From Bradyrhizobium sp. SZCCT0153 (GTDB taxonomy: Bacteria > Pseudomonadota > Alphaproteobacteria > Rhizobiales > Xanthobacteraceae): a stretch of DNA of 64,000 nucleotides. This document shows, one piece after another, positions 28,337-54,742 of this stretch. The notes below the pieces were generated by a model that was not told where the DNA came from, did not search any database, and was given only the letters and a program-made list of their open reading frames with translations. Where the stretch lies: NCBI RefSeq assembly GCF_018129995.1, contig NZ_JAFCKS010000010.1, forward strand, positions 124,001 through 188,000, given 5' to 3'. The number at the start of each line of letters is the position of its first letter. Position 1 is the first letter of the stretch. A program made the position numbers and the translations under genes.

Positions 28337-29605
28337 TCAGTCGGCCCGATCGACCACGGAGATACCGGGCAGCGGCACCACGAACTTTCCGCCCTCGGCG
28401 AAATAACGGGCATGCTTGGCCCGGATCGGATCCACATAGCGCCAAGCGAAGACGACGACGAACGCCGGCTTGCGCTCGTAAAGGGCTGCGGGCGGCAGAA
28501 TCGAAATGTCGTATCCCGGGCCGGCCATCACGTTCGCCTTCTTGGGGTCGTCGTCCACCAGGAAGTCGATCTTGTTCTCCAGGCCGAACTGCGGCAGCAG
28601 GGTCGTGGTGCCGACGGAGACGCCGTAGCCGGCCACCAGCTGACCGCGCGCGTGGGCGGCATCGGCCATCGCGACCAGCTCGTCCCGGATGGCGGCGATT
28701 CTCTTCGCATAGGGCGCATAATAGGCCGGCCGGTCGACGCCGAGCCGGTCTTCCTCGGCGACGAAGCGGGCAACCTCCGCAGACGGCTTCTTGGCGCCGC
28801 CAACGCGCTGCACCGTCACGCGGATCGAACCGCCCTTGGTCCAGATGTGCTGGACGTCGATCAATTCCATGCCGAGCCGCGCGAAGAAGCGCGTCAGCGG
28901 CTTGATGTTAAAATACGACAGATGCTCGTGGTAGACAGTGTCGAGAAGGTTCTTCTCGGTGACGTCAACGCCGTATTGCGTCTCGAAAACGAACAACCCG
29001 TCCGGCGCAAGCACGTCGCGAACCCCGATCACCAGCGGATCGAGATTGTCGACATTGGCGATCATGTTATTGGCGATGACGACGCTGGCCGCACCATGGC
29101 TCTGCAGAATGCGGTGACCAATGGCATCGGTGAAGAAATCGCCGATAGTCTCGATCCCCGCTTCCGTCGCACGCCGCGCGATGTCGACGGCGGGATCGAC
29201 ACCCAGTACCCGCATGCCGCGCTCTTTGAAGAAGCCGAGCAGCGAGCCGTCATTGCTGCCGAGTTCGACGACCAGCGAGCCCGGCGCAATCCCGAAACGG
29301 CTGATGACGTCGTTGGCATAGCCTGCGAAATGCTCCCGCAGGCCGAGCGAGAGCGAGGTCGTGTAGACGTAGTTGCGGTACTGGATCTCCGGATTGCCGA
29401 CATGGAGAATCTGGAGGTGGCCGCAGTCTGCGCACAGGTGCAGCGCCATCGGCACGGCGGCCCGAAAGACGGGATCGTCGACGCTGGCGTCCGGCACCTG
29501 GAAGTTCGGCGTGCCAATGGGCATGCCAGCCATGGGGACGACCAGTTCCTGCTTGTCCGAATGACAAAGGCGGCAGGTATGACGAACGTAGAACAGGTTT
29601 TTCAT
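28337..29605 (-). CDS. sugar C-methyltransferase-like protein (TylC3/NovU type)
   Basis: The layout matches SAM-dependent C-methyltransferases of deoxysugar pathways. First is a zinc-binding head (CRLCHSDKQ near residues 10-18, then CADCGHLQ near residue 57). Next comes a SAM-binding core (LVVELGSNDGSLLGFFKERG near residues 112-131). Last is a C-terminal lobe with QLVAGYGVSVGTTTLLPQFG. I use the ATG at 29605 (422 aa) because upstream residues match nothing. It is the last gene of a minus-strand operon with 29690 and 30725. A second protein of the same architecture lies at 35236. Action on an NDP-keto-sugar is inferred from the family. Confidence 0.85.
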   Translation of the reverse strand: MKNLFYVRHTCRLCHSDKQELVVPMAGMPIGTPNFQVPDASVDDPVFRAAVPMALHLCADCGHLQILHVGNPEIQYRNYVYTTSLSLGLREHFAGYANDVISRFGIAPGSLVVELGSNDGSLLGFFKERGMRVLGVDPAVDIARRATEAGIETIGDFFTDAIGHRILQSHGAASVVIANNMIANVDNLDPLVIGVRDVLAPDGLFVFETQYGVDVTEKNLLDTVYHEHLSYFNIKPLTRFFARLGMELIDVQHIWTKGGSIRVTVQRVGGAKKPSAEVARFVAEEDRLGVDRPAYYAPYAKRIAAIRDELVAMADAAHARGQLVAGYGVSVGTTTLLPQFGLENKIDFLVDDDPKKANVMAGPGYDISILPPAALYERKPAFVVVFAWRYVDPIRAKHARYFAEGGKFVVPLPGISVVDRAD

Positions 29606-29689
29606 TGTGGGACCGGAAAACGGAGACACGCGCGGGTGAGGCAATCCTACCCTGTGGAGATCAGATCGGCGGCAATGATTCAAGAGCGA

Positions 29690-30712
29690 TCAAGGGTGGC
29701 TCGATACCTCCTCGGCTTTCGCCAGCCCGTAGTCCGCCGATGCTTCCGCAGCCTTCGCTGCCTTGTCCGCCGAATATGAGCCGCGCTCCCGACTTGCTAG
29801 CCAGATCACGCCGCCTGCGAGACCGATGAGGACGCTGACGGCACCCAGCAGGATTGAAACCGACAGCGCTTCCTCGGAAGGAACGCCCGCCAGACCGAGA
29901 CAGGCGACCATCGCCCCTTCACGAACGCCCCAGCCGCTGATCGAGATCGGAACTGCGGTCAGCAGGATCACCGGCGGAATCAGAACGGCGGCGTCCACCA
30001 CCGAGAGTTGCGCTCCTACGCCGCGGGCCAGGGCATAACAAGCCGCCGCCGTCACGAGATGGATGAGGAGCGCCGATCCGAAAAGCAAACCGCGGTGCTC
30101 GGATTGCAGGAGAAGGAATCTGACGAGCGTTCCGAACCGGACGAAGCTCGCGATCGCGGGAAACGCGATGAGGCGCTTGGGCAGGCGATCGAGCGTCAAC
30201 AGCACCACGGTGCCGGCGACGCCCGCCAATGTCAGCCCGCCGATGGCCAGGATCGCGGCCTGATTGGACACGCGCGACATCAGGAACGGCAATCCGGCCA
30301 CCATCAGCACGATCAGCCCGATCAACGCCGTGAAACGGTCCGCTGCAACGCCCTTGACCGCTTCCGGCCACTGCACGCCACGCTGGCGCAGCAGCCACAT
30401 TCGCACCGCATCGCCGCCGACCGACGACGGCAATACCTGATTGAACCAGAGGCTGATCATGAGGATTCGCCAGCCGGCCAGCCAGTCCAGCGACACGCCG
30501 AGCGCGCGCATGATCAGCTCCCACCGGCCGTTGAGCGCGAAGGTCTGAACGAATATCAGCGCGAGCGCGAGCACGAACAGGAACGGATCGACGGAGACGA
30601 GGTGGGTCCGCAACGCATGCAGATCGAGACCGCGCGCGATGTAGATCAGCACGGCGATCGACAGCAGAAGTTTTACTGAAAACAGGACCGCCTGCTTGAG
30701 CCGCGACTGCAT
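29690..30712 (-). CDS. polytopic membrane protein, LPG_synthase_TM/flippase-like family
   Basis: The 340-aa product has about eight hydrophobic helices and the family landmarks ALNGRWELIMRALGVSL near residue 64, FNQVLPSSVGGDAVRMWLLR near residues 89-108 and PISISGWGVREGAMVACLGL near residue 256. These are shared by the membrane half of lysylphosphatidylglycerol synthases and by stand-alone relatives often found with glycosyltransferases. There is no catalytic soluble domain, so a lipid or lipid-linked-sugar handling role in the inner membrane is only an inference. It starts 12 bp after the SIS gene stop. Confidence 0.75.
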   Translation of the reverse strand: MQSRLKQAVLFSVKLLLSIAVLIYIARGLDLHALRTHLVSVDPFLFVLALALIFVQTFALNGRWELIMRALGVSLDWLAGWRILMISLWFNQVLPSSVGGDAVRMWLLRQRGVQWPEAVKGVAADRFTALIGLIVLMVAGLPFLMSRVSNQAAILAIGGLTLAGVAGTVVLLTLDRLPKRLIAFPAIASFVRFGTLVRFLLLQSEHRGLLFGSALLIHLVTAAACYALARGVGAQLSVVDAAVLIPPVILLTAVPISISGWGVREGAMVACLGLAGVPSEEALSVSILLGAVSVLIGLAGGVIWLASRERGSYSADKAAKAAEASADYGLAKAEEVSSHP

Positions 30713-30724
30713 CGGATGCCCGCC

Positions 30725-31336
30725 TCAGGATGCCGGATATTCCGCGCGACCGATAACGAGGTCGATCGCGGCCATCATCCAGAACTGGTGCGTGGTCTCG
30801 ACGATGTTGTAGCTGCGGCTGTCGGCCCAGAAATTGATGTCCCCGAGGTTGCGCAGGGGGTTGTCCTCGTTCATGCCCGACAGCGTGATCACGCCGAGCT
30901 TCATCGTCCGTGCCTGTGCAACCGCATTGAGGATGTTCTTCGAACGCCCCGACGAGCTGATCGCGACCAGACAGTCGCCGGCGCGGGCGCTCAACCGCAC
31001 GGCATGCGCGATCCAGTCCTCGAAGCCGTAGTCGTTGGCAAGGCACGACATCATGCTTGCATCGCTGAAGCACAGTGCGGGCACAGCGGCGTTCTTCGCC
31101 AGATCGATAGCCAGATGCGAGGCGATACCGGCCGAGCCGCCGTTGCCGATGAAGATGACGCGGCCACCCTGCTCGCGGGCGCGCAACCAGGCCGCGCGCG
31201 TGGCGGAGATCCTGGCAAAAACACCGTCGTCCGCCGCCGTCGCGCGATGGAGGCGTTGCACGTAATCGTCGAGAAAAGCCTTGTGATCGGGATCGACGGA
31301 CTCGGCTGGCATGGGCTGGCGGCTCGATTGCAACAT
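30725..31336 (-). CDS. SIS-domain sugar isomerase, GmhA-like
   Basis: The 204-aa product (ATG 31336; an ATG at 31312 is also possible) aligns by eye with phosphoheptose isomerase. It has the phosphate-binding loop GRVIFIGNGGSAGIASHLAI, the FSDASMMSCLANDYGFED block, CLVAISSSGRSKNI, and a C-terminal NIVETTHQFWMMAAIDLVIG keeping the His of the GmhA active site. GmhA converts sedoheptulose 7-phosphate to heptose 7-phosphate. Here the neighbouring sugar kinase/nucleotidyltransferase and split transketolase support an aldose-ketose isomerase role on a sugar phosphate. It heads a minus operon divergent from the epimerase gene. Confidence 0.85.
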   Translation of the reverse strand: MLQSSRQPMPAESVDPDHKAFLDDYVQRLHRATAADDGVFARISATRAAWLRAREQGGRVIFIGNGGSAGIASHLAIDLAKNAAVPALCFSDASMMSCLANDYGFEDWIAHAVRLSARAGDCLVAISSSGRSKNILNAVAQARTMKLGVITLSGMNEDNPLRNLGDINFWADSRSYNIVETTHQFWMMAAIDLVIGRAEYPAS

Positions 31337-31365
31337 GACGGGGTGATACCGGCTATTACCAGGGA

Positions 31366-31390
31366 TTGCAAAGGTATAATACTTGCAAAG
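31366..31390. promoter_or_regulatory. repeated TTGCAAAG boxes flanking a TATAAT, divergent promoter region
   Basis: Two identical octamers, TTGCAAAG at 31366-31373 and 31383-31390, lie 17 bp apart and each contains the palindrome TTGCAA. Between them is TATAAT (31375-31380), a possible -10 for the rightward epimerase operon; read leftward it gives TATTATAC for the SIS operon. I see no good -35. The arrangement looks like a two-site operator over a divergent promoter. Confidence 0.35.
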
Positions 31391-31469
31391 TTTGCGAGCG
31401 GCTGGTAGTCGGCTTTCGGGTTTCACTCAAACATTGGCGAGCCTGTTTCGCTGGGCATTCGCGTCACGG

Positions 31470-32507
31470 ATGTTCCCCATGAAATGCATCGTTACTGGCG
31501 GCGCCGGCTTCATTGGAAGTCACCTCGTCGATCGCCTCCTGGATGACGGCCACGAGGTCATCGCGCTCGACAATTTTGTGATCGGACGGCCCGAAAATCT
31601 GGCCGCGCGTGCCAATTCGAGCCAGCTCAACATCGTGCGGGCCGACGTCACCGACCTCGATTCGATCAGACCGTATTTCAACGGTGTCGACTGGGTCTTC
31701 CATCTCGCGGCGCTGGCCGACATCGTTCCCTCGATCGAGTCCCCGATCCCCTATCATCGCGCCAATGTCGACGGCACGGTCAACGTTCTCGAGGCCGCAC
31801 GGCAGGCGGGCGCCAACCGCTTCGTTTACGCCGCATCGTCGTCCTGCTACGGAATTCCCGACGCCTATCCGACCCCGGAGAGCGCCGAGATCCGTCCGAT
31901 GTATCCCTATGCGCTCACCAAGAATCTCGGTGAGCAGTGCGTCATGCATTGGTGCCAGGTCTACAAGCTGCCCGCGGTCGCGCTGCGTCTGTTCAACGTG
32001 TACGGGCCGCGCCACCGTACCACGGGCACTTACGGTGCGGTGTTCGGCGTCTTCATGGCGCAGAAGCTCGCCGGCAAGCCCTTCACGGTGGTTGGCGATG
32101 GCGAGCAGACCCGCGACTTCACCTTCGTCAGCGATGTCGCCGATGCCTTCGTGACCGCCGCGCGCTCGGAGGTCTCGAACGAGATATTCAACGTCGGCTC
32201 CGACAACACCTACAGCGTCAACCGGCTGGTCGAGCTTCTCGGCGGCGACAAGGTCCACATTCCCAAGCGGCCCGGCGAGCCCGACTGCACCTACGCCGAC
32301 ATCACCAAGATCAAGCGGGTCCTGAAATGGACCCCGAAAGTGAAGTTCGAGGTCGGCGTCGCGACGATGCTGAAGTCGATGGACCAGTACAAGGACGCTC
32401 CCCTTTGGACGGTGGACAAGATCGCCGACGCCACCAAGGACTGGTTCAAATATCTTGGTGGCGAAAACGATTCGGCGTCCGGCACGTCGCAGAAGGCAAG
32501 CCGTTGA
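31470..32507 (+). CDS. NAD-dependent sugar-nucleotide epimerase/dehydratase (extended SDR)
   Basis: The Rossmann start MKCIVTGGAGFIGSHLVDRL follows the ATG at 31479; an in-frame ATG at 31470 adds three residues. The active-site pattern is an SSSCYG serine block (YAASSSCYGIPDAYPT) and YPYALTK (Tyr-x3-Lys). This is the GalE/RmlB/WbpP superfamily; length is about 345 aa. Epimerases of this type act on NDP-sugars at C4 or other positions. It is first in a plus-strand operon followed by the kinase/nucleotidyltransferase and a second SDR, so its substrate is probably the sugar nucleotide made there. Confidence 0.88.
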   Translation: MFPMKCIVTGGAGFIGSHLVDRLLDDGHEVIALDNFVIGRPENLAARANSSQLNIVRADVTDLDSIRPYFNGVDWVFHLAALADIVPSIESPIPYHRANVDGTVNVLEAARQAGANRFVYAASSSCYGIPDAYPTPESAEIRPMYPYALTKNLGEQCVMHWCQVYKLPAVALRLFNVYGPRHRTTGTYGAVFGVFMAQKLAGKPFTVVGDGEQTRDFTFVSDVADAFVTAARSEVSNEIFNVGSDNTYSVNRLVELLGGDKVHIPKRPGEPDCTYADITKIKRVLKWTPKVKFEVGVATMLKSMDQYKDAPLWTVDKIADATKDWFKYLGGENDSASGTSQKASR

Positions 32508-32596: not shown

Positions 32597-34162
32597 ATGG
32601 GTAATGCTCCGACAGACAAGCCGACCGGCCATCCGGCCCCGCACGAGAAGATCAAGACGATCGAGGAACTGGCCGCGATCGCGCGGGCCGCGCAGGCAGA
32701 AGGCCGGACCGTCGCACTCTGCCACGGCGTGTTCGATCTCGTGCATCTCGGCCATGTCCGGCACATCCTGGCAGCGCGCAACGAGGCTGACGTCGTCATC
32801 GTGACCGTGACGGCCGACCGTTTCGTCAACAAGGGACCGGGACGGCCGATCTTTCCGGAGAACATGCGCGCGGAGATGCTGGCCGCGCTCGGCACGGTCG
32901 ACTGGGTCGGAATCAACCGGACCTCGAGCGCCGAGCCGATCCTCGATGCCGTACGCCCCGACATCTACGTGAAGGGTTCGGACTACGAAAATCCCGAGGA
33001 TGACGTCACCGGCAAGATCGCCACCGAGCGGGAGGTCGTCGAACGCCATGGCGGCCGCGTCGTCTTCACGCGCGACGTCACCTTCAGCTCGTCGTCGCTG
33101 ATGAATCGCTACTTCGACATCTACGATCCCCCCCTGCGCGACTACCTCCAGAAGGTGCGCGAAGGCGGCGGCGCCGAACGCCTGCTGAAGCTGATCGACA
33201 AGATCCAGGACATGCACGTCGTGCTGGTCGGCGACACCATCATCGACGAATACCAGTACGTCACGGCGCTCGGAAAGGCCTCGAAGGAAAACATCGTCGC
33301 CACACTGTTCAAGAACGGCGAGCAATTTGCCGGCGGCGTCATTGCCGCGGCCAATCACGTGGCGAGCTTCTGCAAGTCCGTGGAGATCGTCACGACGCTC
33401 GGTGGCAACGACTACCCGGAAGAGTTCATCCGCGCGCATGTCCGCCCGAACGTCACGCTCACGCCGATCCGCATTCAGGGCCGTCCGACGACCCGCAAAT
33501 TGCGGTACGTCGAGCTTGGATATCTGCACAAGCTCTTCGAAGTATACACCATGGACGACACGCCGCTCGACGAGGCCGAGCGGAAGGAGATCGACCAAAT
33601 CACCGCCGAGCGCGTTCGCGGCGGGGACGTGGTGATCGTCACCGATTTCGGTCACGGCATGATCGCGCCAAGCACGATCGATGCCCTGATCGCCAACTCC
33701 AAGTTCCTGGCGATCAACGCCCAGAGCAACAGCGGAAACCACGGCTATAATCTGGTCACGAAATATCCGCGGGCCGACTACCTCTGCATCGACGCGCCGG
33801 AAGCCCGGCTGGCGGCCACCGACAAGTTCAGCGACATCGCGTCGGTGATCGAGAACGGACTGCACGGCAAGATCGACTGCGACAACATGATCATCACGCA
33901 CGGCTCGTTCGGCTGCTACCCCTTCTCGTCGAAGACCGGCGTGGCGCGCGTTCCCGCTTTCACCAAGACAGTCGTCGACACCGTCGGCGCGGGGGACGCC
34001 TTCCTGACGATCACCGCGCCTCTGGTCGCCGCCGGCGGCAATATCGAGGACGTCGCCTTCATCGGCAACGCTGCAGGCGCGATCAAGGTCGGTATCGTCG
34101 GCCACCGCAGTTCGGTCGAAAAGGTGCCACTGGTCAAATTCGTCACCGCGTTGCTGAAGTAA
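32597..34162 (+). CDS. bifunctional nucleotidyltransferase / PfkB sugar kinase, reversed HldE order
   Basis: The 521-aa product starts with a cytidylyltransferase-fold domain (LCHGVFDLVHLGHVRHIL, HxGH at residues 50-53, about residues 30-170). It ends with a PfkB/ribokinase domain (LVGDTIIDEYQYV near residue 214; anion hole and catalytic base in VGAGDAFL near residue 465). E. coli HldE has kinase first and nucleotidyltransferase second, so the order here is swapped. By analogy it would phosphorylate a sugar phosphate at C1 and transfer a nucleotide to it. The second SDR starts 27 bp downstream. Nucleotide and sugar specificity are unknown. Confidence 0.85.
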   Translation: MGNAPTDKPTGHPAPHEKIKTIEELAAIARAAQAEGRTVALCHGVFDLVHLGHVRHILAARNEADVVIVTVTADRFVNKGPGRPIFPENMRAEMLAALGTVDWVGINRTSSAEPILDAVRPDIYVKGSDYENPEDDVTGKIATEREVVERHGGRVVFTRDVTFSSSSLMNRYFDIYDPPLRDYLQKVREGGGAERLLKLIDKIQDMHVVLVGDTIIDEYQYVTALGKASKENIVATLFKNGEQFAGGVIAAANHVASFCKSVEIVTTLGGNDYPEEFIRAHVRPNVTLTPIRIQGRPTTRKLRYVELGYLHKLFEVYTMDDTPLDEAERKEIDQITAERVRGGDVVIVTDFGHGMIAPSTIDALIANSKFLAINAQSNSGNHGYNLVTKYPRADYLCIDAPEARLAATDKFSDIASVIENGLHGKIDCDNMIITHGSFGCYPFSSKTGVARVPAFTKTVVDTVGAGDAFLTITAPLVAAGGNIEDVAFIGNAAGAIKVGIVGHRSSVEKVPLVKFVTALLK

Positions 34163-34189: not shown

Positions 34190-35191
34190 GTGATTGATCA
34201 AAAATGGAATGTGATGGTCACCGGTGGCGCCGGCTATGTCGGCAGCGTGCTGGTTCCCCATTTGCTCGCCGCGGGCCACAAGGTCACCGTGCTCGACCTG
34301 TTCATGTACGGCGAGGACGTCTTCGACGCCGTCCGCAACAACCCCAATTTGCGCCTGATCAAGGGCGACATCCGCGACGAGGCCGCGATCAACGAGGCCC
34401 TGCGCGGCAACAACGCGGTGATCCATCTCGCCTGCATCTCCAACGACCCGTCGTTCGAACTCGACCCGTCGCTCGGAAAATCCATCAATTACGATTGCTT
34501 CCGGCCGATGGTGCGCGCCGCGAAGAAGGCCGGCATCAAGCGCTTCATCTACGCGTCCTCGTCCAGCGTCTACGGCATCAAGGACGAGGCCGAGGTGACG
34601 GAGGATCTGTCCTGTGAGCCGCTGACCGACTACTCGAAATTCAAGGCGATGTGCGAGACCGACCTTGCCGAGGAGGCCGCGTCGGGGTTCGTCACATGCA
34701 CCGTCCGTCCCGCCACCGTCTGCGGTTACGCGCCGCGGCAGCGGCTCGACGTCGTCGTCAACATCCTGACCAATCTCGCGGTCAACACGGGCCGCATTCG
34801 CGTGTTCGGCGGAACGCAGCGCAGACCCAACCTGCACATCGAGGACATGTCCGCGGCCTATCTGTTCCTGCTGCAGCAGGACGACGCGAAGATCGACGGC
34901 AAGACCTACAATATCGGCTACGAGAATCACTCGCTGATGAAGATCGCCGATATCGTCAAGTCGGTGGTCGGCAGCAATGTCGACGTCGCGGTGGAGCCGA
35001 CCGACGATCTGCGCTCATACCACGTCTCGTCGGAGAAGATCCGCCGCGAGCTCGGCTTTGCGCCGACGCACACGATCGAGCAGGCCGTGTCGGGGCTGGT
35101 CGACGCCTTCAAGTCCGGCCGTCTGCCGAACTCGCTCAACGACCCCCGGTACTTCAACATCAAGATGATGCAGAACATCAGCCTGAAGTGA
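34190..35191 (+). CDS. NAD-dependent epimerase/dehydratase (extended SDR)
   Basis: This second extended SDR of the operon has 333 residues, a Rossmann start MVTGGAGYVGSVLVPHLLAA near residue 9 and the active-site segments YASSSSVYGIKDEAEVTE and LTDYSKFKAM (Tyr-x3-Lys). It ends with a substrate-domain region with SEKIRRELGFAPTH. It is clearly different in sequence from the SDR at 31470. By position it is the HldD-like or dehydratase step after the nucleotidyltransferase; the actual reaction is not determined. A hairpin in the convergent spacer probably ends the operon. Confidence 0.87.
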   Translation: MIDQKWNVMVTGGAGYVGSVLVPHLLAAGHKVTVLDLFMYGEDVFDAVRNNPNLRLIKGDIRDEAAINEALRGNNAVIHLACISNDPSFELDPSLGKSINYDCFRPMVRAAKKAGIKRFIYASSSSVYGIKDEAEVTEDLSCEPLTDYSKFKAMCETDLAEEAASGFVTCTVRPATVCGYAPRQRLDVVVNILTNLAVNTGRIRVFGGTQRRPNLHIEDMSAAYLFLLQQDDAKIDGKTYNIGYENHSLMKIADIVKSVVGSNVDVAVEPTDDLRSYHVSSEKIRRELGFAPTHTIEQAVSGLVDAFKSGRLPNSLNDPRYFNIKMMQNISLK

Positions 35192-36438: not shown

Positions 36439-36491
36439 GGTCACAGGGTCTTTCCGATTTTCAAAGCGAGGCGACTGTTCTGGGAACCTTG

Positions 36492-46159: not shown

Positions 46160-46186
46160 CAATGTCGCGAACAGCCTGTGGCGACC

Positions 46187-46783: not shown

Positions 46784-48537
46784 GCGTCTTTGCCGGTTTC
46801 GATGATTTTCGCATGAAGACTGCCTCGAAAGCAGCAGCTCACCGTTCCTGGAGACGGCCAGGCATTGCCTATGTCTACCTGGCAATGGCACTGGCGATCG
46901 CCGCGAGCGTGCCTGCGCTGTTCGCGCGCCAGGTCTTCGGCGACGACTGGACCGTCTACTACATCTATTGGACCCAAGGCGCAGTCGGTCTTGCGCGCCT
47001 GCTATGGGAGGCAGCCCATGCCGGCTTTGCCATCCCCATGACCGTGTCTGTTGCGCTTTTGCCCGACATGCCCGATCTCGCCGCGCGGCTCGCCGGACTG
47101 GGTTGCCATATCGTGAACGGCATATTGCTTTACGCCGTTCTCTCACGATCACCGCATACAAGGCGGATCAGGGACCTCGTCACGGCGCTGTTCCTGCTCA
47201 GCCCATTCTATGCAATTCGCCTGACGCAAAACGCGGTCTATGACTTCTTTCTCCTGTTCTATTTGCTGTCCTACGAGTTGAGCTACTCGAAGGTCCGGGC
47301 GCTCCGATGGACGGCGCCGTTCAGCCTGCTCTTCGCATTGTCCCTCGAGACACTGATCGCCCTCGAGCCGCTCCGCATCGTGCTGGCGCGGTCCCCGACC
47401 GAACGTTGGACGCAGACGCTCGCACGTCTTGTTCCGTTCTGGCTGGCCATCGCGGTCATGATCGTGCTGCGGCTGACAATTCTGGGAAAGAGCGGTCACT
47501 ACGCCGGGCAGTATGGTTTCACGCCTGACATTGCCGTCATCAGCCAGGCACTGGCTACCCATCTGCTGGCCTTCCCGCGCGGCCTCGCCTACGCATACTC
47601 CCAAGGCTTCAAGCTTCTCGGCCGCCCCGTTTCGACCATGCTGACATTCGCAGCGATCGCCGTATTCGTCCTGTTCTCATCAGGCGCACTGCGGACGTCC
47701 TGGATGCTCAAGAGCCGCGCCTCGACCGGAAGCCTGCTGCTTTTGCTGCTGTTGGGAGCCGCAATGGCCGTCCTCGGCGCCATTCCCTACGCGCTTGCCG
47801 GGCTCTATGGCGACATGGGACGGGGCGAATCGAGACTGCTCTTTCCATCGCAATTCGGCATGTTGATCCTGATGGCCGCCATCATGCAGATGATTCCGAC
47901 ACCCCGTCTTCGTACGGCGGCCGCTGGTGGCGTGATCACAATTTTCGCACTTTCGTTGGTGCACGATTCCAAATGGCTGCTGTACGACGGGCTGGTCACC
48001 GGTGACATGCAGCGGCAAGTCCGTGCAGCCTTGCTGGCGGATCCCGAGCCCAAGGTCGTGAAGCTCCTGATCTCGGACAGTTACGGCATTCCATTCCGCG
48101 CGCGGTGCCTTGCGGCAAATGACATGAATGTCGCACAAGCGACGCTGCGTGACGAAGGTCGAGGACGATCGTTTGTCTACACCGACTTTTGCGGGGATCT
48201 TACTTCAGGGGCCGCCTCGCGCGGCCGCTGCTCGATTTCCTACCTCGAATTCTTTCCTTGCCCACAACGCCAGGAGACCTGGCGTTATCGCGCCGCGCCC
48301 GCGATTCCGCCGCTCAATGACATGAGCTTGTTCGAGATCCTGAGGGAGGTCCTCGAGGATGCTCCTTCAGCCACCGGAGGCCGTGGGGAGCTCATGCAAT
48401 TGAAGGATGGCGAGCCGACGCCCCTGGCGAGAGCGGAGTATCGGCCGCCGTGCCAACGGCCTGGCGTCCGTGGGGCGGCTTGGCTCCTAGCCCTGCCGTC
48501 ACCCGCATGCGATGAAGCATCTCCGGGAGTTCAGTAG
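46780..48537 (+). CDS. polytopic GT-C-like membrane protein
   Basis: The 585-aa product starts at a GTG overlapping the cupin stop; an ATG at 46813 is an alternative. After one membrane helix comes FARQVFGDDWTVYYIYWTQG, an acidic pair in the first outer loop as in GT-C glycosyltransferases. About ten more helices follow, then a C-terminal outer part of about 150 residues with several Cys (CLAANDMN, YTDFCGD, RGRCSISYLEFFPCP). It shares this layout, and the N-terminal DDW, with the protein at 51008. A periplasm-facing sugar transferase using a lipid-linked donor is the likeliest role. Confidence 0.65.
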   Translation: MSVFAGFDDFRMKTASKAAAHRSWRRPGIAYVYLAMALAIAASVPALFARQVFGDDWTVYYIYWTQGAVGLARLLWEAAHAGFAIPMTVSVALLPDMPDLAARLAGLGCHIVNGILLYAVLSRSPHTRRIRDLVTALFLLSPFYAIRLTQNAVYDFFLLFYLLSYELSYSKVRALRWTAPFSLLFALSLETLIALEPLRIVLARSPTERWTQTLARLVPFWLAIAVMIVLRLTILGKSGHYAGQYGFTPDIAVISQALATHLLAFPRGLAYAYSQGFKLLGRPVSTMLTFAAIAVFVLFSSGALRTSWMLKSRASTGSLLLLLLLGAAMAVLGAIPYALAGLYGDMGRGESRLLFPSQFGMLILMAAIMQMIPTPRLRTAAAGGVITIFALSLVHDSKWLLYDGLVTGDMQRQVRAALLADPEPKVVKLLISDSYGIPFRARCLAANDMNVAQATLRDEGRGRSFVYTDFCGDLTSGAASRGRCSISYLEFFPCPQRQETWRYRAAPAIPPLNDMSLFEILREVLEDAPSATGGRGELMQLKDGEPTPLARAEYRPPCQRPGVRGAAWLLALPSPACDEASPGVQ

Positions 48538-48606: not shown

Positions 48607-48774
48607 AGGCTTCAGCGACGCCGCGTGTGTTTTGGCGCCGATGTTCGCCCGTCATTCCGCAAAGAGCCCGAACAGTGACCGACTCTTGCCGCCTCAGCCC
48701 TTCGACCGATCCGTGGCCGGTCATTGACCTCTCGAGCGAATTCGGTCGGCGCGCGACAGCCACAGGGGCGCAGC

Positions 48775-49980
48775 ATGGCTGAGGACAAGCTTTTCAACTA
48801 TTACGAACGTCAAAACATCCTGCCGACGTTCGCGAATTTCAAGTCACCCGGCGAACTCGATGCCTATGCCCGTGCGCGCCGCGAGCTGTTTTCGGACAAG
48901 CTGGTGTTGCCGCCACGCCTGTTCCGTGACGCCGAGGTCCTCGAGTTCGGTCCGGATTCCGGCGAGAACGCCCTGGTGTTTGCCGGCTGGGGCGCAAACA
49001 TGACGCTCGCCGAACCGAACCGGCAGGCCCACGCGCGGATTCAGGCCTATTTCTCGCATTTCGGGCAGACCGCCCGCCTTCGCGAGCTGGCATCGTCAGA
49101 TGTCGAAGGATTTGGGAGCGATCGCCGCTTCGACGTGGTCGATGCCGAAGGCTTCATCTACACGATCCAGCCGAGCGCGACCTGGCTTCGCATTTTCCAT
49201 CGCCTGCTCAATCCGGACGGATATGCCATCGTTTCGTATTACGAGCGCTACGGCGGCTTCTTCGAACTCGCGCTCAAGGCCATCCATGCGGCCGGCAAGG
49301 CCCTGTCGGAACGTCCAGCGCTGGAAACGGCGAAGCTGCTGTACGAGGCGAAATGGAACAGCATTCCGCACACCCGCAGCTTCGAATCCTGGCTGATGGA
49401 CGTGCTCGAAAATCCCTTCGTCCGACGCCGGTATTTCCTCGATGCCGTGGAATTGTGCACGTCGGCGCATGAACTGGGGTTCGACATCCATTCGGCATGG
49501 CCGTCGTACCACGACAATGTTGACGTCTACTGGCACAGGAAGGTCCTGTCCTCCGACGAAAAGCTGCGTCGCTCCGTGCGCCATCTCGAGCGGAGCCGAC
49601 TGAGCTTCCTCGGCGGACGAAAGCTCTATCTAGTCGGCAAGTCCGACGCGGTGAGCACGATCACGACCTTGATCGAAGGTCTGCTCGTCGACGTCGACAG
49701 GCTGATCGACGACCCCTTCGGAGACAGCCTTCCCCGTGTGATCTCGAGCCTCGCCGAATTGCGCGACACAGCGCGCGCGACCGAGATCTTCGCTGACGAA
49801 GCTGCCGACATCGCAGCAATCAACGCGACGCTCGACAGTTTCCATCGCATCTTCAGCGCGATCGGACAGCGCGATTTTTCCGCGGTCACGGCCCTCACCC
49901 GAACTGAAGCGGCGTTCATCAACACCTGGGGACAGCCGACGCACTTCCTCGTCGTTCGCAAGCGTTTCGAGGAAGAGTAG
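48775..49980 (+). CDS. SAM-dependent methyltransferase
   Basis: The 401-aa product (ATG 48775, preceded by aggggc) has a class I SAM-binding motif, EVLEFGPDSGENALVFAGWG near residues 56-75, followed by MTLAEPNRQAHARI and a RFDVVDAEGFIYTI strand. The second half, from about residue 215, matches nothing I can name and contains an IINxLxEGxLxDVD-like helical region. It is 3 bp upstream of the Gfo/Idh/MocA dehydrogenase and probably modifies the same sugar, by O- or C-methylation. Confidence 0.78.
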   Translation: MAEDKLFNYYERQNILPTFANFKSPGELDAYARARRELFSDKLVLPPRLFRDAEVLEFGPDSGENALVFAGWGANMTLAEPNRQAHARIQAYFSHFGQTARLRELASSDVEGFGSDRRFDVVDAEGFIYTIQPSATWLRIFHRLLNPDGYAIVSYYERYGGFFELALKAIHAAGKALSERPALETAKLLYEAKWNSIPHTRSFESWLMDVLENPFVRRRYFLDAVELCTSAHELGFDIHSAWPSYHDNVDVYWHRKVLSSDEKLRRSVRHLERSRLSFLGGRKLYLVGKSDAVSTITTLIEGLLVDVDRLIDDPFGDSLPRVISSLAELRDTARATEIFADEAADIAAINATLDSFHRIFSAIGQRDFSAVTALTRTEAAFINTWGQPTHFLVVRKRFEEE

Positions 49981-49983: not shown

Positions 49984-51018
49984 GTGCGTCCTGGCATTGG
50001 CATCATCGGGACCGGCATGGTCGGCCAGATGTGCCATCTTGCCAATTTCGTTGCCAATCCCGCTTGCCGCGTGGTCGCGATCGCCGATCTCCGACCGGAT
50101 CTCGCTGCCGCGGCGGCGCAAAAATTCGGCGTCACACGAGTCTACGCCACACACCGGGAACTGCTTGCCGACAACGAAATATCCGGCGTGGTCGTGGTGA
50201 CGAAACGCCGGGCCACGGGCCCGATCGTCCTGGATGCGCTGAACGCCGGACGGCACGTGCTGTCGGAGAAGCCGATGGCCTACACGACGGCCCAGGCAAG
50301 CACGCTCGTCGCGGCTGCCCGGCGGCAGAGCCTTGTCTACAGCATCGGCTACATGAAGCGCCACGACGCCGGCGTGGCGCGCGCGCTGGCCGAGCTGGCG
50401 CGCATTCGAAGCGAAGGGACGCTCGGACGCATGATCGGCGCGCGAGGCTGGTGCTTCGCCGGTAACACCGGCGGATCGCGCGAGACCTTCGTCATGACCG
50501 GCGAAACCCGGCCCGACGGGCTCGAGCTCTGGCAGGACGGTCCGGACTGGATGCCGATCGCGAGGCGGCCGGGCTACGACAACTTTCTGAACGTCTTCAG
50601 CCACATCATCAATCTGGCGCGCCATATGCTCGGGCCTTCGCCCGCTGTCGCCGAAAGCAGTGTCGAAGTCTCCGGCGCCGCGCGCCTCACTCTCGACTTC
50701 GACGGCGTCGGCTGCGTGCTGGAACTTGCAAATGGATCGGAGGGCGCCTGGCGCGAAGGACTGACGATCAACTTCGAGCGCGGCGCCGTGACCATCGAAC
50801 TGCCGGCTCCCTTTGCCGGGGAAGAGGCGCAGATCATCCTCGACTGCGATGGTCGTCTCACCCGGCTGCCGCGCGAAAAGAGTTGGGCCTTTCGACGTCA
50901 GGCCGATGCATTCGTCTCCGATATCATCGAACGAAAGGCTCCCCTGGCGTCCGGCGAGGATTCGATCGTCGACATTGCACTGGCAGAGGCGGTCTGGAAG
51001 CGGCAGGTCACTGGCTAG
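49984..51018 (+). CDS. Gfo/Idh/MocA-family oxidoreductase
   Basis: The family uses NAD(P) on sugars, NDP-sugars or inositols. The 344-aa product starts at a GTG with a ggaagag ribosome site. It has the Rossmann motif GIGIIGTGMVGQMCHLANFV, the conserved HVLSEKPMAY (EKP motif) near residue 94, and a substrate domain with ARNM-equivalent helix region DNFLNVFSHIINLARHMLG. It follows the methyltransferase by 3 bp and overlaps the convergent gene at 51008 by 11 bp. Substrate unknown; a keto-sugar intermediate is likely. Confidence 0.88.
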   Translation: MRPGIGIIGTGMVGQMCHLANFVANPACRVVAIADLRPDLAAAAAQKFGVTRVYATHRELLADNEISGVVVVTKRRATGPIVLDALNAGRHVLSEKPMAYTTAQASTLVAAARRQSLVYSIGYMKRHDAGVARALAELARIRSEGTLGRMIGARGWCFAGNTGGSRETFVMTGETRPDGLELWQDGPDWMPIARRPGYDNFLNVFSHIINLARHMLGPSPAVAESSVEVSGAARLTLDFDGVGCVLELANGSEGAWREGLTINFERGAVTIELPAPFAGEEAQIILDCDGRLTRLPREKSWAFRRQADAFVSDIIERKAPLASGEDSIVDIALAEAVWKRQVTG

Positions 51019-52690
51019 GCTTCGCGCCTTCGATCGGCAGGATGCCGGCGATCGGCCCAACGTCGATCGTGACCTGCGCGAGTTGATCCAGGAACTGCGA
51101 TACATCGCAGCGCGCAAGCAGCCGGCAGGCGTAATATCTCCGAGCCAGCACCATGTTCGGCGCGGCGGCGGGGCCAGGCTGCAATGAGATCGTCGCCTGC
51201 CGTCCCGACGGATCGAAATGGCGGAACGCGCTTCCGGGCGCCGTGCGCGCCTCTTCCATTTCCCGGAGGATCGACGGCCTCTCCGCACGCAGCGCGAAAC
51301 CGAAGAAGGGCTGATTGCCCCAAGCGAGCCGGAGGATGCCGCTGACCTCGGCGAGACCGAACGGCACGTGTCGCGACGGGAAATCGACGAAGCCGTCGTC
51401 GAGCGCGAAGACCGTCGCAGCCGGCTGGGTCCGGCTGGCGAGAGCGCGCGCCAGGGCCTCCTGCTTCAGTGTCCTCGCCTGCATGAAAATGTAGCCGTTC
51501 CACAGCATGCCGATCGACAGCATCGTTCCCAATCCGAACACGACTGCAAAGGCGAGGCCGGGACGGGTCCAACGTTCGGCCGCCCGCTTGAAGGCGAGCA
51601 GCGTCAGCGCCGACGGTAGGCCGAACATCAGGAGATGACGGCTCTCATAGAAATGCGATGTCGCAGGCCTCAGGCCGGCGATGAGATAGGGGAGCGACAA
51701 TGCCAGGAACAGAATTACGGCGAGCGCGAGCGGCAGGGCGTTCAAGCTCCGACAGCCGGTCGGCTCTGTGTCGGAGCGAAGCAGCATCAACGCGATGCCG
51801 ACGAGGACCGCGGCAAGGATGAAGAGCTTTGGGCTGTCGACCGCCGCGTGAAGGGTGTTGACGACGACGTCGGTGTAGCCGGTGGCAAAAAAGACCCTCC
51901 ACCCCTGCACCAATTCGCCCAGGTTCGGTAAATGGGCGTTGTAGTGCTGCGCATATACGCCGCTACGCTTGAACCAGACATTGAGCGCGCCCCAATAGAC
52001 CAGAGGCAGCACGACCAGTTCGGGATAAGCCACGGCGCAGCGCCAGGCCGCGCGCCATGTGCGGCGAACGAAGCCCTGCCCCGCGTCACAGGCCCGCCAA
52101 AAGGCAACGAAGAGACCGAACATCAGGAAGGCGTAGAGCACGATCGTCGAGTTCAATGCGAAGCTCAGCAGGAACACGAGCGCACACATCACGCGGAGCA
52201 GCAGGGATCGCAAGCCGCCGGCGCCATAGGCGAGACTGAGCAGCCACGCGCCGACGAACGACAGCCCAAAGCTCAGGACGTAGACCGCGTTCGCCTTGCC
52301 CGCCCAGAGCTGGTAGCCGGGATAGGTCCAGACGATCAATGCAACGCCGACGGCCTCGGCGCGGTCGAGCAGATTGAGCCGCGTGGCCGTCAGCACCAGG
52401 CATGTCGCGCCGAAGAGAATTCCGGCGATCGCCATCGATACCATCGCGACAACCGGAGCGCCCGTCCAATTCGCGAAGGTGTCGTAGCTGTAGAAAATCG
52501 GATGGCCGGCACCGGACAGCAGGAAATCGATGTCGATGACGAAATCAGGACGCGGCTTGAGCACCAGCCAGTCGTCCATGAAGAGACCGTCGTTCAGCAG
52601 CATAGGCGCGTGCGCAGCCAGCAACACCACGAGGAGGATTGCTATCGGGCGCAACAGCAAGGATTTGCCCGGACGGTGGAGGAAGGTCAT
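51008..52690 (-). CDS. polytopic GT-C-like membrane protein
   Basis: The product is 560 aa from the ATG at 52690 (a GTG at 52708 is possible). The first helix is followed by NDGLFMDDWLVLKPRPDFV, giving the acidic pair expected of GT-C glycosyltransferases, then about ten helices and a C-terminal outer segment of about 120 residues. The order of helices and the DDW motif match the protein at 46780, though sequence similarity by eye is low. It is transcribed toward the dehydrogenase and divergently from the small membrane-protein pair. Confidence 0.65.
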   Translation of the reverse strand: MTFLHRPGKSLLLRPIAILLVVLLAAHAPMLLNDGLFMDDWLVLKPRPDFVIDIDFLLSGAGHPIFYSYDTFANWTGAPVVAMVSMAIAGILFGATCLVLTATRLNLLDRAEAVGVALIVWTYPGYQLWAGKANAVYVLSFGLSFVGAWLLSLAYGAGGLRSLLLRVMCALVFLLSFALNSTIVLYAFLMFGLFVAFWRACDAGQGFVRRTWRAAWRCAVAYPELVVLPLVYWGALNVWFKRSGVYAQHYNAHLPNLGELVQGWRVFFATGYTDVVVNTLHAAVDSPKLFILAAVLVGIALMLLRSDTEPTGCRSLNALPLALAVILFLALSLPYLIAGLRPATSHFYESRHLLMFGLPSALTLLAFKRAAERWTRPGLAFAVVFGLGTMLSIGMLWNGYIFMQARTLKQEALARALASRTQPAATVFALDDGFVDFPSRHVPFGLAEVSGILRLAWGNQPFFGFALRAERPSILREMEEARTAPGSAFRHFDPSGRQATISLQPGPAAAPNMVLARRYYACRLLARCDVSQFLDQLAQVTIDVGPIAGILPIEGAKPSQ

Positions 52691-52747
52691 CGGGCGTAGA
52701 TTTCGCACGCTTGCCAGAGCCCCGCAAGGGAGCGAAGCCGGCCTCCC

Positions 52748-52776
52748 TTGACCGGAAAAATCCGACCACCTATAGA
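52748..52776 (+). promoter_or_regulatory. strong sigma-70 promoter for the 52826-54742 operon
   Basis: TTGACC (52748-52753) and TATAGA (52771-52776) are separated by exactly 17 bp, the clearest housekeeping promoter in the island. A small perfect inverted repeat (agact 52774-52778 with agtct 52783-52787) covers the expected start point. It would give a 5' leader of about 43 nt and shows that the open frame before 52826 is not coding. Confidence 0.7.
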
Positions 52777-52825
52777 CTTTTCAGTCTGGATCGGCCTGAG
52801 AGGCAACCGGGGCGATTTTCCGCAA

Positions 52826-53326
52826 ATGAACATGCTTCCGGGTCCCACGCAGATCGCTGCGATTTGTCTCAGTGCCGCGCTTCCGCTGCTTTTGATGTGC
52901 TATGCGCGGATCATTCGCGGATCTGGCCGTCGCTTTCGGCTGGGATGCGTGAGCGTGGTCGTTCTCTTTGTCATCGCCTGCATCGCGATTCCGGGTCAAC
53001 GAAATCTTGACGACGTGCTCGGCGGTCTCTTCCTGCTGGCGACGGCAATCATGCTTTGCTACGTTCTGTTCAGCCTGCTGGCCTGGGGTTTCACGCTGAC
53101 GCTGCTCACGTCACTGGTCCAGGCCGGGCGCCCCCTCACCTCGGAGCAATGGGCCGCGGCCTACATGCAGGGCGGCGACATCGGGACCTTCGCGCACAAT
53201 CGACTGAAGCTCCTGACCGGTTCGGGACTGGTGATGACGACCGATGACAAGCTGGCGCCGACGGCCAAGGGGTTGGCGGTGACTTATCTCGTCAAGCTGG
53301 TTCGCTTGTCGACCGGCCTTGGGTGA
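52826..53326 (+). CDS. small membrane protein with C-terminal soluble domain, unknown
   Basis: The 166-aa product has three hydrophobic helices (about residues 8-25, 36-54 and 62-92) and a soluble C-terminal part of about 65 residues (AHNRLKLLTGSGLVMTTDDK, then LAPTAKGLAVTYLVKLVRL) that looks like a small winged-helix fold. It is followed by a gene for a protein of the same layout. I know no function. The conserved pairing ahead of a GT2 glycosyltransferase suggests a scaffold or partner for sugar transfer at the membrane. Confidence 0.7.
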   Translation: MNMLPGPTQIAAICLSAALPLLLMCYARIIRGSGRRFRLGCVSVVVLFVIACIAIPGQRNLDDVLGGLFLLATAIMLCYVLFSLLAWGFTLTLLTSLVQAGRPLTSEQWAAAYMQGGDIGTFAHNRLKLLTGSGLVMTTDDKLAPTAKGLAVTYLVKLVRLSTGLG

Positions 53327-53333
53327 ATTTTCG

Positions 53334-53840
53334 ATGTCCTTTGCTGTCGGGTTCATCGCCGCCATCGCCTTCGCCCTGCTGGCACCAGTCCTGCAATTCA
53401 TGGCCCGCGCTTTCGCGTGGTCGATTGCGCCGGTGATCCTGCTCGCAATCGGTGCAATCGTCTCACATGGTTTCGGCGTCGTACTCGGCGTTTTGATCGT
53501 CCCGCAATTCCGGTATTGGGACGCCGCCTCGATTTTCGCGTTTTGCGTCATGGGCTATGTTTTCGCCTTTGGGGCGGTGTACAAGTCGGTTTCGCTGGAG
53601 ATCCTGCTGAGCCTCGTCGACCGGCCGGAGCGGACCGCCCCGCTATCCGAGGTCGTCGAACGCCAGGTTCCACATCTGTTCCAGGGACGAGCTAAGATTC
53701 TTGTCGATGGCGGGCTGGTCGAACAGGTCGACTCGCGCTTTGCCGCGACTGCGGCCGGCCGGAACATGGCAGGCCGCATCGGTCGTTTGCGCCGATTCTT
53801 CGGCATTGGAGACACGGGCCTCTACGACTTTATCGATTAG
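53334..53840 (+). CDS. small membrane protein, second of a similar pair, unknown
   Basis: I use the ATG at 53334, with gggtga just upstream (168 aa); it starts 7 bp after the previous stop. Three hydrophobic helices (about residues 5-30, 32-56 and 64-88) precede a soluble part with SLEILLSLVDRPERTAPLSE and LVDGGLVEQVDSRFAATAAG that again looks winged-helix-like. The match to its neighbour in size, topology and the LxxxGLVxxxxxxxxxTxxG pattern suggests an old duplication. Function unknown. Confidence 0.7.
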   Translation: MSFAVGFIAAIAFALLAPVLQFMARAFAWSIAPVILLAIGAIVSHGFGVVLGVLIVPQFRYWDAASIFAFCVMGYVFAFGAVYKSVSLEILLSLVDRPERTAPLSEVVERQVPHLFQGRAKILVDGGLVEQVDSRFAATAAGRNMAGRIGRLRRFFGIGDTGLYDFID

Positions 53841-53980
53841 TTGCCTTGAGGACACGCCCCCGCCCAATTGTGACAGTTCCGCAGACCGGTGTGTCGGCGC
53901 GATGTTGTTCGGTCGGCGCGGATGACTTAGAGTTGCATCCGGTTTCAACCGTACAGAGTGGCCGGAAACGGCAGTATCCG

Positions 53981-54742
53981 ATGACATCTCCCAAGGCCGC
54001 CAAAAAGCTGACCATCGTCATTCCGGCATTGAACGAGCAGGACAAGATCGCCGACACCATCGACGGCGTCTTGCCGCTGGCCCGCGAGCTGCTCGACGAT
54101 TTCGAGATCTTCCTGATCGACGATGGCAGCGATGACGCGACCGGCGCGATCATGGACGACTACGCGACCAGGGATTCGCGGATCATCGTGCGGCATCACG
54201 CGGAACGGCGCGGCGTCGGCGCTGGCTTCAAATACGCGCTGTCCCATGCGAAGTTCGATGCCATCACGCTGATCCCCGGCGATCACGCCTTTCAGGACGA
54301 AGGCATCGCCAGGATGTTCAAGGCGGCGGGCGCCGCCGACATTGTGATCACCTACCGCGACAATCAATCGGACCGTTCCGTCAATCGCTCGATCCAGTCG
54401 CATTCGCTGCGGTTCATCCTCAATTGCCTGTTCGGCTTCTGGTTGTCCGACTACCACAGCATGATCATCTACCCCGTGAAATGGCTGCGCCAGATCGCGG
54501 TGGACGTCGACGGCTACGGCTACCAGATCTGCTCCCTGATCTCGCTGCTCCAGCTCGGCCTCACCCACGTCCAGGTGCCCGTGAGCCTGAATGCGGAGCT
54601 GAAGGGATCATCGCGCGCGCTGCGTCCGCACACCTATCTGCAGCTCGGCCAGACCATCCTTTCGCTGCTTCGCCGCGTGCCGATCCGCAACATTGATCTC
54701 AGCCAGGTGCCTTCGGACGCCGGGCGGACCGCTGCTCGCTGA
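53981..54742 (+). CDS. family 2 glycosyltransferase
   Basis: The start MTSPKAAKKLTIVIPALNEQ (ATG 53981) leads into the GT-A fold; the product is 253 aa. The nucleotide-binding Asp lie in FLIDDGSDDATG near residue 45 and the metal-binding position is in LIPGDHAFQDEG near residue 98. Hydrophobic segments near residues 150-170 and 195-215 suggest membrane association, as in dolichol- or undecaprenyl-phosphate sugar synthases. It could supply the lipid-linked sugar used by the GT-C-like proteins. It ends the 52826 operon. Confidence 0.85.
   Translation: MTSPKAAKKLTIVIPALNEQDKIADTIDGVLPLARELLDDFEIFLIDDGSDDATGAIMDDYATRDSRIIVRHHAERRGVGAGFKYALSHAKFDAITLIPGDHAFQDEGIARMFKAAGAADIVITYRDNQSDRSVNRSIQSHSLRFILNCLFGFWLSDYHSMIIYPVKWLRQIAVDVDGYGYQICSLISLLQLGLTHVQVPVSLNAELKGSSRALRPHTYLQLGQTILSLLRRVPIRNIDLSQVPSDAGRTAAR

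Follow-up and report, generated by a model that had tools for sequence, protein, structure and literature searches.

Which surface sugar might be built by a gene island that combines a heptose-like set of sugar-activation genes with a transketolase of its own? The question is raised by a 26-kb carbohydrate island of Bradyrhizobium sp. SZCCT0153 (assembly GCF_018129995.1), which occupies positions 28337-54742 of a 64,000-nucleotide stretch of contig NZ_JAFCKS010000010.1 (positions 124,001 to 188,000); that whole stretch is called the window here. A sequence-only reading of the window had suggested that the island repeats the logic of ADP-heptose synthesis and may build an unusual heptose, octose or branched sugar, and had named bradyrhizose as a precedent. 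We determined gene content, homology, co-inheritance and the match to published primers, and these are the direct results of this work. The island probably supplies the precursor of an unusual surface sugar through a heptose-like route and transfers it, and the likeliest product is a heptose or a longer sugar of a bradyrhizose-like kind, because the core of the island is homologous to an operon required for the bradyrhizose O-antigen. Loci, genomes and contigs are given as L, G and C numbers where needed.

The island core and the bradyrhizose operon

Bradyrhizose, a ten-carbon, inositol-fused sugar, makes up one Bradyrhizobium O-antigen on its own (PMC9912281, PMC9042403). In strain ORS285 an insertion in gdh removes bradyrhizose, and gdh is one of eleven clustered genes, most of them for sugar modification, that lie ~44 kb from rfaL (PMC4743980). 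The word transketolase has 0 occurrences in that paper, and the portions of it that were available name the gene cluster and contain no biosynthetic route to bradyrhizose that we could find.

The published gdh and rfaL PCR primers (PMC4743980) were matched to Bradyrhizobium genomes. The gdh primers converge ~380 bp apart inside one extended short-chain dehydrogenase/reductase (SDR) gene, with 1+2 mismatches in L057, 3+1 in L056 and 3+5 in L062. Among 13 photosynthetic genomes the gdh forward primer has one site each in G064 and G145 and none in the other 11, and its reversed control has no site in any of the 13. The rfaL primers of both strains match beside the canonical hldE, 43 kb from gdh in G064 (0-2 mismatches) and 40 kb from it in G145 (0-3). 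The genes of L062 were used as the reference for the operon. Its gdh cluster comprises eleven genes on one strand in the order methyltransferase, APH, HAD, Zn-ADH, the C-terminal and N-terminal halves of a split transketolase (TKC and TKN), gdh, SIS, SDR2, NTP_transferase and a nucleotidyltransferase/kinase fusion with the domain order of HldE reversed (reversed HldE). This cluster is colinear in 5/5 loci and has the published number of genes. Judging from primers, gene count and spacing, the primer-matched genomes are probably the published strains or their near kin.

Seven of the operon genes have counterparts in the window by tblastn: TKN (46% identity), SDR2 (44%), HAD (43%), TKC (40%), APH (37%), SIS (34%) and the reversed HldE, whose island copy is called NTKIN (27%), with E values from 2.7e-13 to 4.8e-80. 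The bradyrhizose guess of the sequence-only reading thereby gains independent support, as the gdh primers from the literature lead to an operon with the same core. The operon genes for Zn-ADH, NTP_transferase and methyltransferase have no match in the window at E 1e-4 (tblastn), and operon gdh is only 25% identical to SDR1, the other SDR of the island; given these differences the island should not make bradyrhizose itself.

Two further observations concern the operon. The gene matched by the gdh primers (L062:5775-6773), which the paper describes as a dTDP-glucose 4,6-dehydratase, lacks both GxxGxxG and YxxxK by a simple scan for motifs, so its assigned activity is doubtful. Additionally, a bradyrhizose-type operon is found outside Bradyrhizobium, in a ~1.8 Mb genome of another family (L146, G228:C74), with identities to the operon of 71% (SDR2), 59% (TKN), 55% (gdh) and 50% (NTKIN).

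Distribution and co-inheritance

The genes were followed through 146 Bradyrhizobium and 398 Pseudomonadota genomes. A first scan gave 49 loci, of which 42 are titled Bradyrhizobium, one Bradyrhizobiaceae (L016) and six are from other metagenome-assembled genomes (L037, proteobacterium, 84%; L044; L046-L049). SIS, SDR1, NTKIN and SDR2 are present in 43/43 Bradyrhizobium/Bradyrhizobiaceae loci, and both transketolase halves, HAD/APH and the TIGR04324 oxygenase in 42/43 (the contig of L010 ends first); because the core genes recur to this extent, the gene set is not due to chance. The standard order is CMT1 (a C-methyltransferase), flippase, SIS, SDR1, NTKIN, SDR2, HAD, APH, TKN, TKC, two DegT aminotransferases, TIGR04324, TIGR04323, methyltransferase and WbuC, with the flippase gene missing from 9/43 loci. 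The order from SDR1 to TIGR04323 is the same in an Ignavibacteriota locus from another phylum (L044), and a locus from another family of the same class (L089) has a nearly identical gene set.

Reversed HldE was found in 52 of the 146 Bradyrhizobium genomes, in 42 as the island type (NTKIN 84-100%) and in ten as a distant type (28-32%). All 52 also have a split transketolase, located 3.5-4.9 kb away on the same contig in 51 and on another contig in G071, and in all 52 a SIS gene lies 1.8-4.5 kb from the reversed HldE. In G062 and G136 a SIS like that of the island is present, but NTKIN has no long match.

The reversed fusion is present in 50 of the 398 Pseudomonadota genomes (E 1e-25 or better). 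At 20 loci outside the genus (19 genomes) a strong split transketolase (at least 51%) accompanies it in seven (L130, L131, L133, L137, L139, L145 and L146) and a weak one in L140; in the other 12, which include loci on short contigs (L134, L138, L149), there is none or just one half matches weakly. A strict coupling of reversed HldE to transketolase was rejected as a general rule, since it is true in the Bradyrhizobium sample and false outside the genus. An association with photosynthesis was also rejected, as neither the island nor the operon tracks Photo_RC. Of the 13/146 genomes with Photo_RC, three carry the island (G060, G112, G134), two the bradyrhizose-type operon (G064, G145) and two a third type that is described below (G081, G130); G031, G082 and G097 have the bradyrhizose-type operon without Photo_RC. 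TIGR04323 is present in 7/398 Pseudomonadota genomes, 6 of the 7 being Bradyrhizobium, and is unusable for dating the cluster because it is too sparse.

Gene content of the island

The island adjoins tRNA-Trp (54878-54953). On the other flank is a minus-strand block ending near 28087, which from gene sizes and protein starts we take to be rpoC-rpoB, ribosomal protein genes, nusG and secE. The GC content across the island is 59-66% in 2-kb windows. The frames of the named genes are open, GC-rich at codon position 3 and matched by protein families, and every gene listed by the sequence-only reading proved real in this sense. Where it had placed a HAD domain, at 42963, the gene is a HAD-APH fusion. 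That fusion, the TIGR04324 oxygenase, the TIGR04323 protein and the WbuC cupin are additions to the earlier list. The genes are as follows.

28337-29683, minus: CMT1, C-methyltransferase (Methyltransf_13/23/14; Methyltransf_14 1.6e-42); 83-97% in 43/43 Bradyrhizobium loci
29690-30712, minus: flippase-like membrane protein (LPG_synthase_TM, PF03706 5e-47; TIGR00374 67.3 bits, cut-off 43.2); in 34/43 loci
30725-31426, minus: SIS, GmhA-like ketose/aldose phosphate isomerase, putative substrate (SIS_2 9e-12)
31383-32507, plus: SDR1, extended SDR (Epimerase 2.7e-63); start probably later, near 31470
32597-34162, plus: NTKIN, N-terminal nucleotidyltransferase (CTP_transf_like 2.4e-14) and C-terminal PfkB sugar kinase (9.2e-20)
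34190-35191, plus: SDR2, extended SDR common to the bradyrhizose operon (Epimerase 2.7e-41; 44% to operon SDR2)
35236-36567, minus: CMT2, second C-methyltransferase (family match); downstream of WbuC in relatives L096 and L097
36492-37505, minus: TKC, transketolase C-terminal half (Transket_pyr 2.1e-29, Transketolase_C 1.9e-26)
37436-38287, minus: TKN, transketolase N-terminal half (Transketolase_N 1.3e-49)
38284-40533, minus: membrane protein, ~11 transmembrane (TM) segments, possibly GT-C-like; no family
40876-42966, plus: acyltransferase AT3 and SGNH domain fusion (Acyl_transf_3 5.6e-27, SGNH 1.2e-28)
42963-44606, minus: fusion of HAD phosphatase (43944-44606, HAD motifs) and APH-type kinase (42963-43943, APH 1.1e-11)
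44959-45774, plus: TIGR04324 sporadic carbohydrate cluster 2OG-Fe(II) oxygenase (336.3 bits, cut-off 150, E 1.1e-100)
45767-46159, plus: TIGR04323 sporadic carbohydrate cluster protein, SPC1 (168.4 bits, cut-off 55, E 5.7e-50)
46178-46783, plus: WbuC-family cupin (TIGR04366 130.6 bits, cut-off 42)
46780-48537, plus: membrane protein, ~7 TM segments, possibly GT-C-like; no family
48724-49980, plus: methyltransferase (Methyltransf_23 1.1e-19)
49984-51018, plus: Gfo/Idh/MocA oxidoreductase (PF01408 1.8e-22)
51008-52708, minus: membrane protein, ~8 TM segments, possibly GT-C-like; no family
52748-53326, plus: small membrane protein, 4 TM segments
53319-53840, plus: small membrane protein, 4 TM segments
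53846-54742, plus: family 2 glycosyltransferase (Glycos_transf_2 1.6e-23)

The three large membrane proteins (38284-40533, 46780-48537 and 51008-52708) have no Pfam or NCBIfam match, two of them carry GDDW/DDW-like motifs near the N-terminus, and they are possibly GT-C glycosyltransferases. The TIGR04323 protein (45767-46159) has a predicted fold (pLDDT 82.6) like the catalytic domain of serine recombinases; the best structure match of the model is 3bvp (E 1.7e-3, prob 1.0), with none at E 0.001 or better. A comparison with the resolvase motif by eye found no serine after conserved arginine 14 in six aligned rows. The model predicts a recombinase-like fold inside a sugar cluster.

Core enzymes and the ADP-heptose pathway

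In NTKIN the nucleotidyltransferase precedes the kinase, the reverse of HldE. The best PDB match, to the N-terminal domain, is 5x9q, and the C-terminal domain matches 4e84, a heptose 7-phosphate kinase. The window copy is 96% identical to that of L001, and in a two-domain tree 21 reversed rows split from three canonical HldE sequences at 100/100, with some long branches flagged. The transketolase halves have their best PDB matches in the split transketolase of Carboxydothermus (TKN 6yak, 3.3e-69; TKC 6yaj, 7.8e-61). TKN of the window contains GHVG, SKGHG, GGHPE, GDGEINEG and WHH, and GPTHEAIED and the E of GVSEQN are conserved in TKC. In an alignment of 15 loci and the Carboxydothermus enzyme, the GHxG, SKGH, GHPE and WH histidines, GDGE/SDGE...EG and the TH/SH of TKC are kept. 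We take the donor-site roles of these residues from yeast and E. coli transketolase. The conserved histidines favour a ketol donor, and ketol transfer is predicted. Acetyl transfer of the DXS kind, considered as a source of methyl ends, was set back by the presence of transketolase-type histidines in all 15 aligned rows.

The best PDB match of SIS is the phosphoheptose isomerase 2i22 (3e-19). It keeps the histidine at GmhA position 61 and, like 7/7 module rows, has D at position 65, where 2/2 canonical rows have E. In the C-terminal motif, compared by eye in an alignment, the histidine at position 180 is M in the window and L001 and H in the other rows. These positions (H61, E65, H180) follow what we take to be the GmhA numbering. 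In the HAD part D6, D8, T10, S92, K142 and D156/D157 are invariant in 8/8 aligned homologues, and a weak PDB match was obtained to the phosphoserine phosphatase 1f5s (E 0.0057); a Pfam scan of the 42963-44606 product detected APH alone and no HAD family. HAD and APH are separate genes in L001. SDR1 has the motif SSSCYG, and both island SDRs are of the SSSxYG type, not TDEVYG, which is the motif of 4,6-dehydratases.

The enzymes were compared with the curated profiles of the ADP-heptose pathway. SIS scores 84.5 bits against the GmhA equivalog TIGR00441 (cut-off 209.45), a strict threshold, as the best Bradyrhizobium match overall also falls short at 207.2 bits and 2/14 control genomes pass. NTKIN, with its reversed domain order, reaches 154.4 bits against the HldE profile NF008454 (cut-off 521), and SDR1 and SDR2 reach 121.1 and 67.2 bits against HldD (TIGR02197, cut-off 274.6). 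For GmhB, the HAD-containing proteins of the window and L001 gave no NCBIfam match at E 0.001. Because no island enzyme reaches the GmhA, HldE or HldD cut-off, the island is best described from its sequences as working like the Hld pathway without being a member of it. The island does contain the reaction logic proposed by the sequence-only reading (ketose phosphate, SIS, kinase, HAD, nucleotidyltransferase, SDR), and its genes are inherited together. The claim of that reading that different proteins carry out these steps is not supported in the sense of unrelated stand-ins, as NTKIN and SIS are remote relatives of HldE and GmhA.

The island is also separate from the chromosomal hldE, as a parallel pathway would be: the genome has a canonical, kinase-first hldE on contig C18, separate from the island on C2, beside genes that are presumably hldD and a heptosyltransferase from their protein starts. 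One explanation is that gmhA/gmhB were lost from the chromosome and the island SIS (and HAD) took their place in the usual ADP-heptose route. The canonical hldE fits this explanation, as does the finding that the sole gmhA match in the genome besides the island SIS is weak (E 1.2e-4). It is nonetheless highly improbable, and the substitution was dropped, since 76/94 genomes without reversed HldE likewise have no gmhA-like match at 1e-8; an HldE-like match is present in 143/146 genomes, so the lack of gmhA is frequent even in genomes with no island to make up for it.

Separately, we note that the hldE locus of this genome (L094, G000:C18:232000-251900) has no gmhA and that G064 has one at the equivalent place (L082, 7880-8593). 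A small HAD-like ORF next to that gmhA is absent from the ORF list of L094, although no search was aimed at gmhB. No gmhA-like match was found in 76/146 Bradyrhizobium genomes.

Proposed route to the sugar

We infer, with good support, a heptose-like route from a ketose phosphate to a nucleoside diphosphate (NDP) sugar; each reaction, the chain length and the acceptor are deduced from the direct results. TKN and TKC would add a two-carbon ketol unit to an aldose phosphate to give a ketose phosphate, which the GmhA-like SIS would convert to an aldose phosphate. The PfkB domain, perhaps with the APH kinase, would then phosphorylate C1, HAD would remove the terminal phosphate, and the N-terminal domain of NTKIN would make the NDP-sugar. 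SDR1 and SDR2, the C-methyltransferases, the oxygenase and the acyltransferase may then modify it, and the family 2 glycosyltransferase and membrane proteins would pass the sugar to a surface glycan.

The product could be an ordinary seven-carbon sugar, a heptose that the island methylates and oxidises, with the transketolase providing no more than sedoheptulose 7-phosphate. Heptose enzymes are good matches for the SIS, kinase and nucleotidyltransferase domains, and the reversed fusion CBU0678 of Coxiella has been described on a heptose model (PMC5843353). Additionally, a transketolase is missing from many loci with reversed HldE. Against a heptose, cells already obtain sedoheptulose 7-phosphate from their housekeeping transketolase, and on general grounds a second transketolase that is dedicated to the island and inherited with it suggests another substrate. 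The homologous operon serves a C10 sugar, and D replaces the canonical E at SIS position 65 in the module rows. A simple heptose is a reasonable but somewhat doubtful answer.

The point at which the transketolase acts may be judged from a third type of locus (L058-L061), which has SDR2 (55-57%), SDR1 (57-58%), SIS, reversed HldE, methyltransferase, TKN and TKC, and in 4/4 loci examined also a transaldolase (PF00923, 2.5e-37); a fifth genome (G054) stands outside this count. Chain building on sugar phosphates is favoured because two types of carbon-chain enzyme stand beside the same activation genes. A third-type-like locus is also found outside the genus (L148, G420:C55), with a transaldolase (59%), a UDP-glucose-dehydrogenase-like gene (55%) and a reversed HldE (31%). 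Five more Bradyrhizobium loci (L084-L088) have split transketolases with no reversed HldE nearby, and in L084-L086 these adjoin genes remotely like NTP_transferase and gdh (25-28%).

YerE-type enzymes add a two-carbon branch to an NDP-keto-sugar, and the split transketolase could in the same way act late, adding a branch and not building the sugar-phosphate chain. The setting of L084-L086 agrees with such a role. So do a split transketolase of Actinoplanes that stands beside DegT aminotransferases, with no HldE-like gene named in the part of the source available (PMC13390465), and a 4-C-branched sugar in the O-antigen of Rhodopseudomonas palustris (PMC9912281). We consider a late branching step unlikely, as the transketolase-type donor histidines are intact, a split transketolase is the top match, SIS, HAD and kinases of sugar phosphates accompany the genes, and the third type adds a transaldolase.

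A chain built on sugar phosphates and leading to a heptose or longer sugar is the reading we prefer, and several points weigh against it. The gdh mutant is perhaps polar, polar effects not having been excluded by its authors (PMC4743980). NTKIN is only 27% identical to the operon copy, so the sugar or the nucleotide may differ. At 13/20 loci outside the genus there is no strong split transketolase nearby, so the NTKIN-type enzyme is not tied to transketolase. Finally, because M replaces H at position 180, SIS may not be a GmhA-type isomerase.

A rearranged variant in the window strain

Compared with the 43 Bradyrhizobium loci, most of the island in the window is ordinary: CMT1 is 83-97% identical, flippase 70-94%, SIS 72-94%, SDR1 82-94%, NTKIN 88-96%, SDR2 93-98%, TIGR04324 83-89% and WbuC 77-86%. 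A divergent cassette is formed by TKN (64-66%), TKC (54-59%) and HAD-APH (36-40%). The window genome is the only one of 42 island genomes in which TKN is less than 91% identical to the standard (64%). The closest relatives of its transketolase are Rhodospirillaceae-type sequences (67% to L090, which belongs to the L047 genome). In a tree the remaining Bradyrhizobium transketolases group with that of the Ignavibacteriota at 100/99 and leave the window copy outside; NTKIN, by its own tree, is an ordinary Bradyrhizobium copy. A block is inverted, CMT2 has moved in, an acyltransferase has been added, and three genes of the standard island, both DegT aminotransferases and one methyltransferase, are absent. 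Without the aminotransferases, the sugar of this strain would be expected to have lost amino groups. From these sequences, the transketolase/HAD-APH part looks like an in-place swap to a divergent, foreign-looking cassette, as in O-antigen loci.

The three missing genes and the rearranged middle might also be expected of a decaying remnant that makes nothing. This is very unlikely, since the genes still there have open frames and normal GC by codon position, and the replaced transketolase keeps its catalytic residues.

A possible module for higher-carbon sugars

Tentatively, reversed HldE, split transketolase, SIS, HAD, APH and SDR2 may form a general module for C8-C10 surface sugars, of which bradyrhizose would be one product and the island sugar another higher-carbon, perhaps carbocyclic one, in 42/146 Bradyrhizobium genomes and in other phyla; the window strain would then have changed its sugar by swapping the cassette for carbon-carbon bonds. 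No description of such a module, or of its presence in the bradyrhizose operon, was found in the open-licence literature, which was covered mostly as titles and the starts of abstracts. The bradyrhizose operon, viewed as a heptose pathway that has been remodelled and given a transketolase of its own, offers a testable first half of a route. The genes may also serve as a signature for unusual surface sugars, as 52/146 Bradyrhizobium genomes carry one of three versions and similar loci are found outside the genus. Should the sugar sit on the cell surface, as bradyrhizose does, legume hosts would meet it, and knowledge of it species by species would help work on symbiosis.

Comparison with known systems

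The markers of the sporadic carbohydrate cluster (NCBIfam TIGR04323 and TIGR04324) are both present in the island, adjacent and far over cut-off, but the name is a database label without a stated function, and the phrase was not found in the open-licence literature. As a split transketolase, the island enzyme has two subunits, the thiamine diphosphate motif and donor-site histidines, and both halves align with the Carboxydothermus enzyme (PDB 6yak/6yaj) over most of their length; the PDB entry, in contrast, implies no sugar-nucleotide genes.

Neither the split transketolase in a polysaccharide cluster nor the reversed fusion is new alone. The Wzx/Wzy-type wps-2 cluster of Actinoplanes contains a split transketolase, a SAM methyltransferase and two DegT aminotransferases, and differs from the island in that no SIS, HAD or HldE-like gene is named in the portion of the source available (PMC13390465); this comparison is by description, not sequence. 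The text available of PMC11766843 merely names transketolase in an enzyme list. In Coxiella, the kinase/adenylyltransferase fusion CBU0678 is reversed and is needed for full-length lipopolysaccharide, and its region is implicated in virenose synthesis (PMC5843353). NTKIN has the same nucleotidyltransferase-before-kinase order, a likeness of domain order as described and not of sequence.

In the synthesis of the lincomycin octose a transaldolase is followed by an isomerase, a kinase, a phosphatase and a nucleotidyltransferase. These enzymes (LmbR, LmbN, LmbP, LmbK and LmbO) lead to GDP-octose (PMC12945683 Table 1). The island resembles this pathway in having a chain-building enzyme followed by isomerase, kinase, phosphatase and nucleotidyltransferase. 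It differs in that the octose pathway uses a transaldolase where the island has a transketolase, has separate kinase and nucleotidyltransferase proteins, and serves an antibiotic and not a surface glycan; a Pfam scan found no transaldolase family among the island proteins, whereas the third-type relatives have one.

The ADP-heptose pathway (GmhA, HldE, GmhB, HldD) has an equal order of reaction types, and SIS and both domains of NTKIN are remotely homologous to its enzymes. The island differs by its reversed domain order, scores far under the curated cut-offs, and an extra split transketolase and APH. The bradyrhizose operon (the gdh operon of ORS285, PMC4743980) shares reversed HldE, split transketolase, SIS, HAD, APH and SDR2 with the island at 27-46% identity. 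It is a different locus, and in place of its gdh, Zn-ADH, NTP_transferase and methyltransferase genes the island carries SDR1, CMT1, the TIGR04324/TIGR04323 pair, WbuC and transfer genes.

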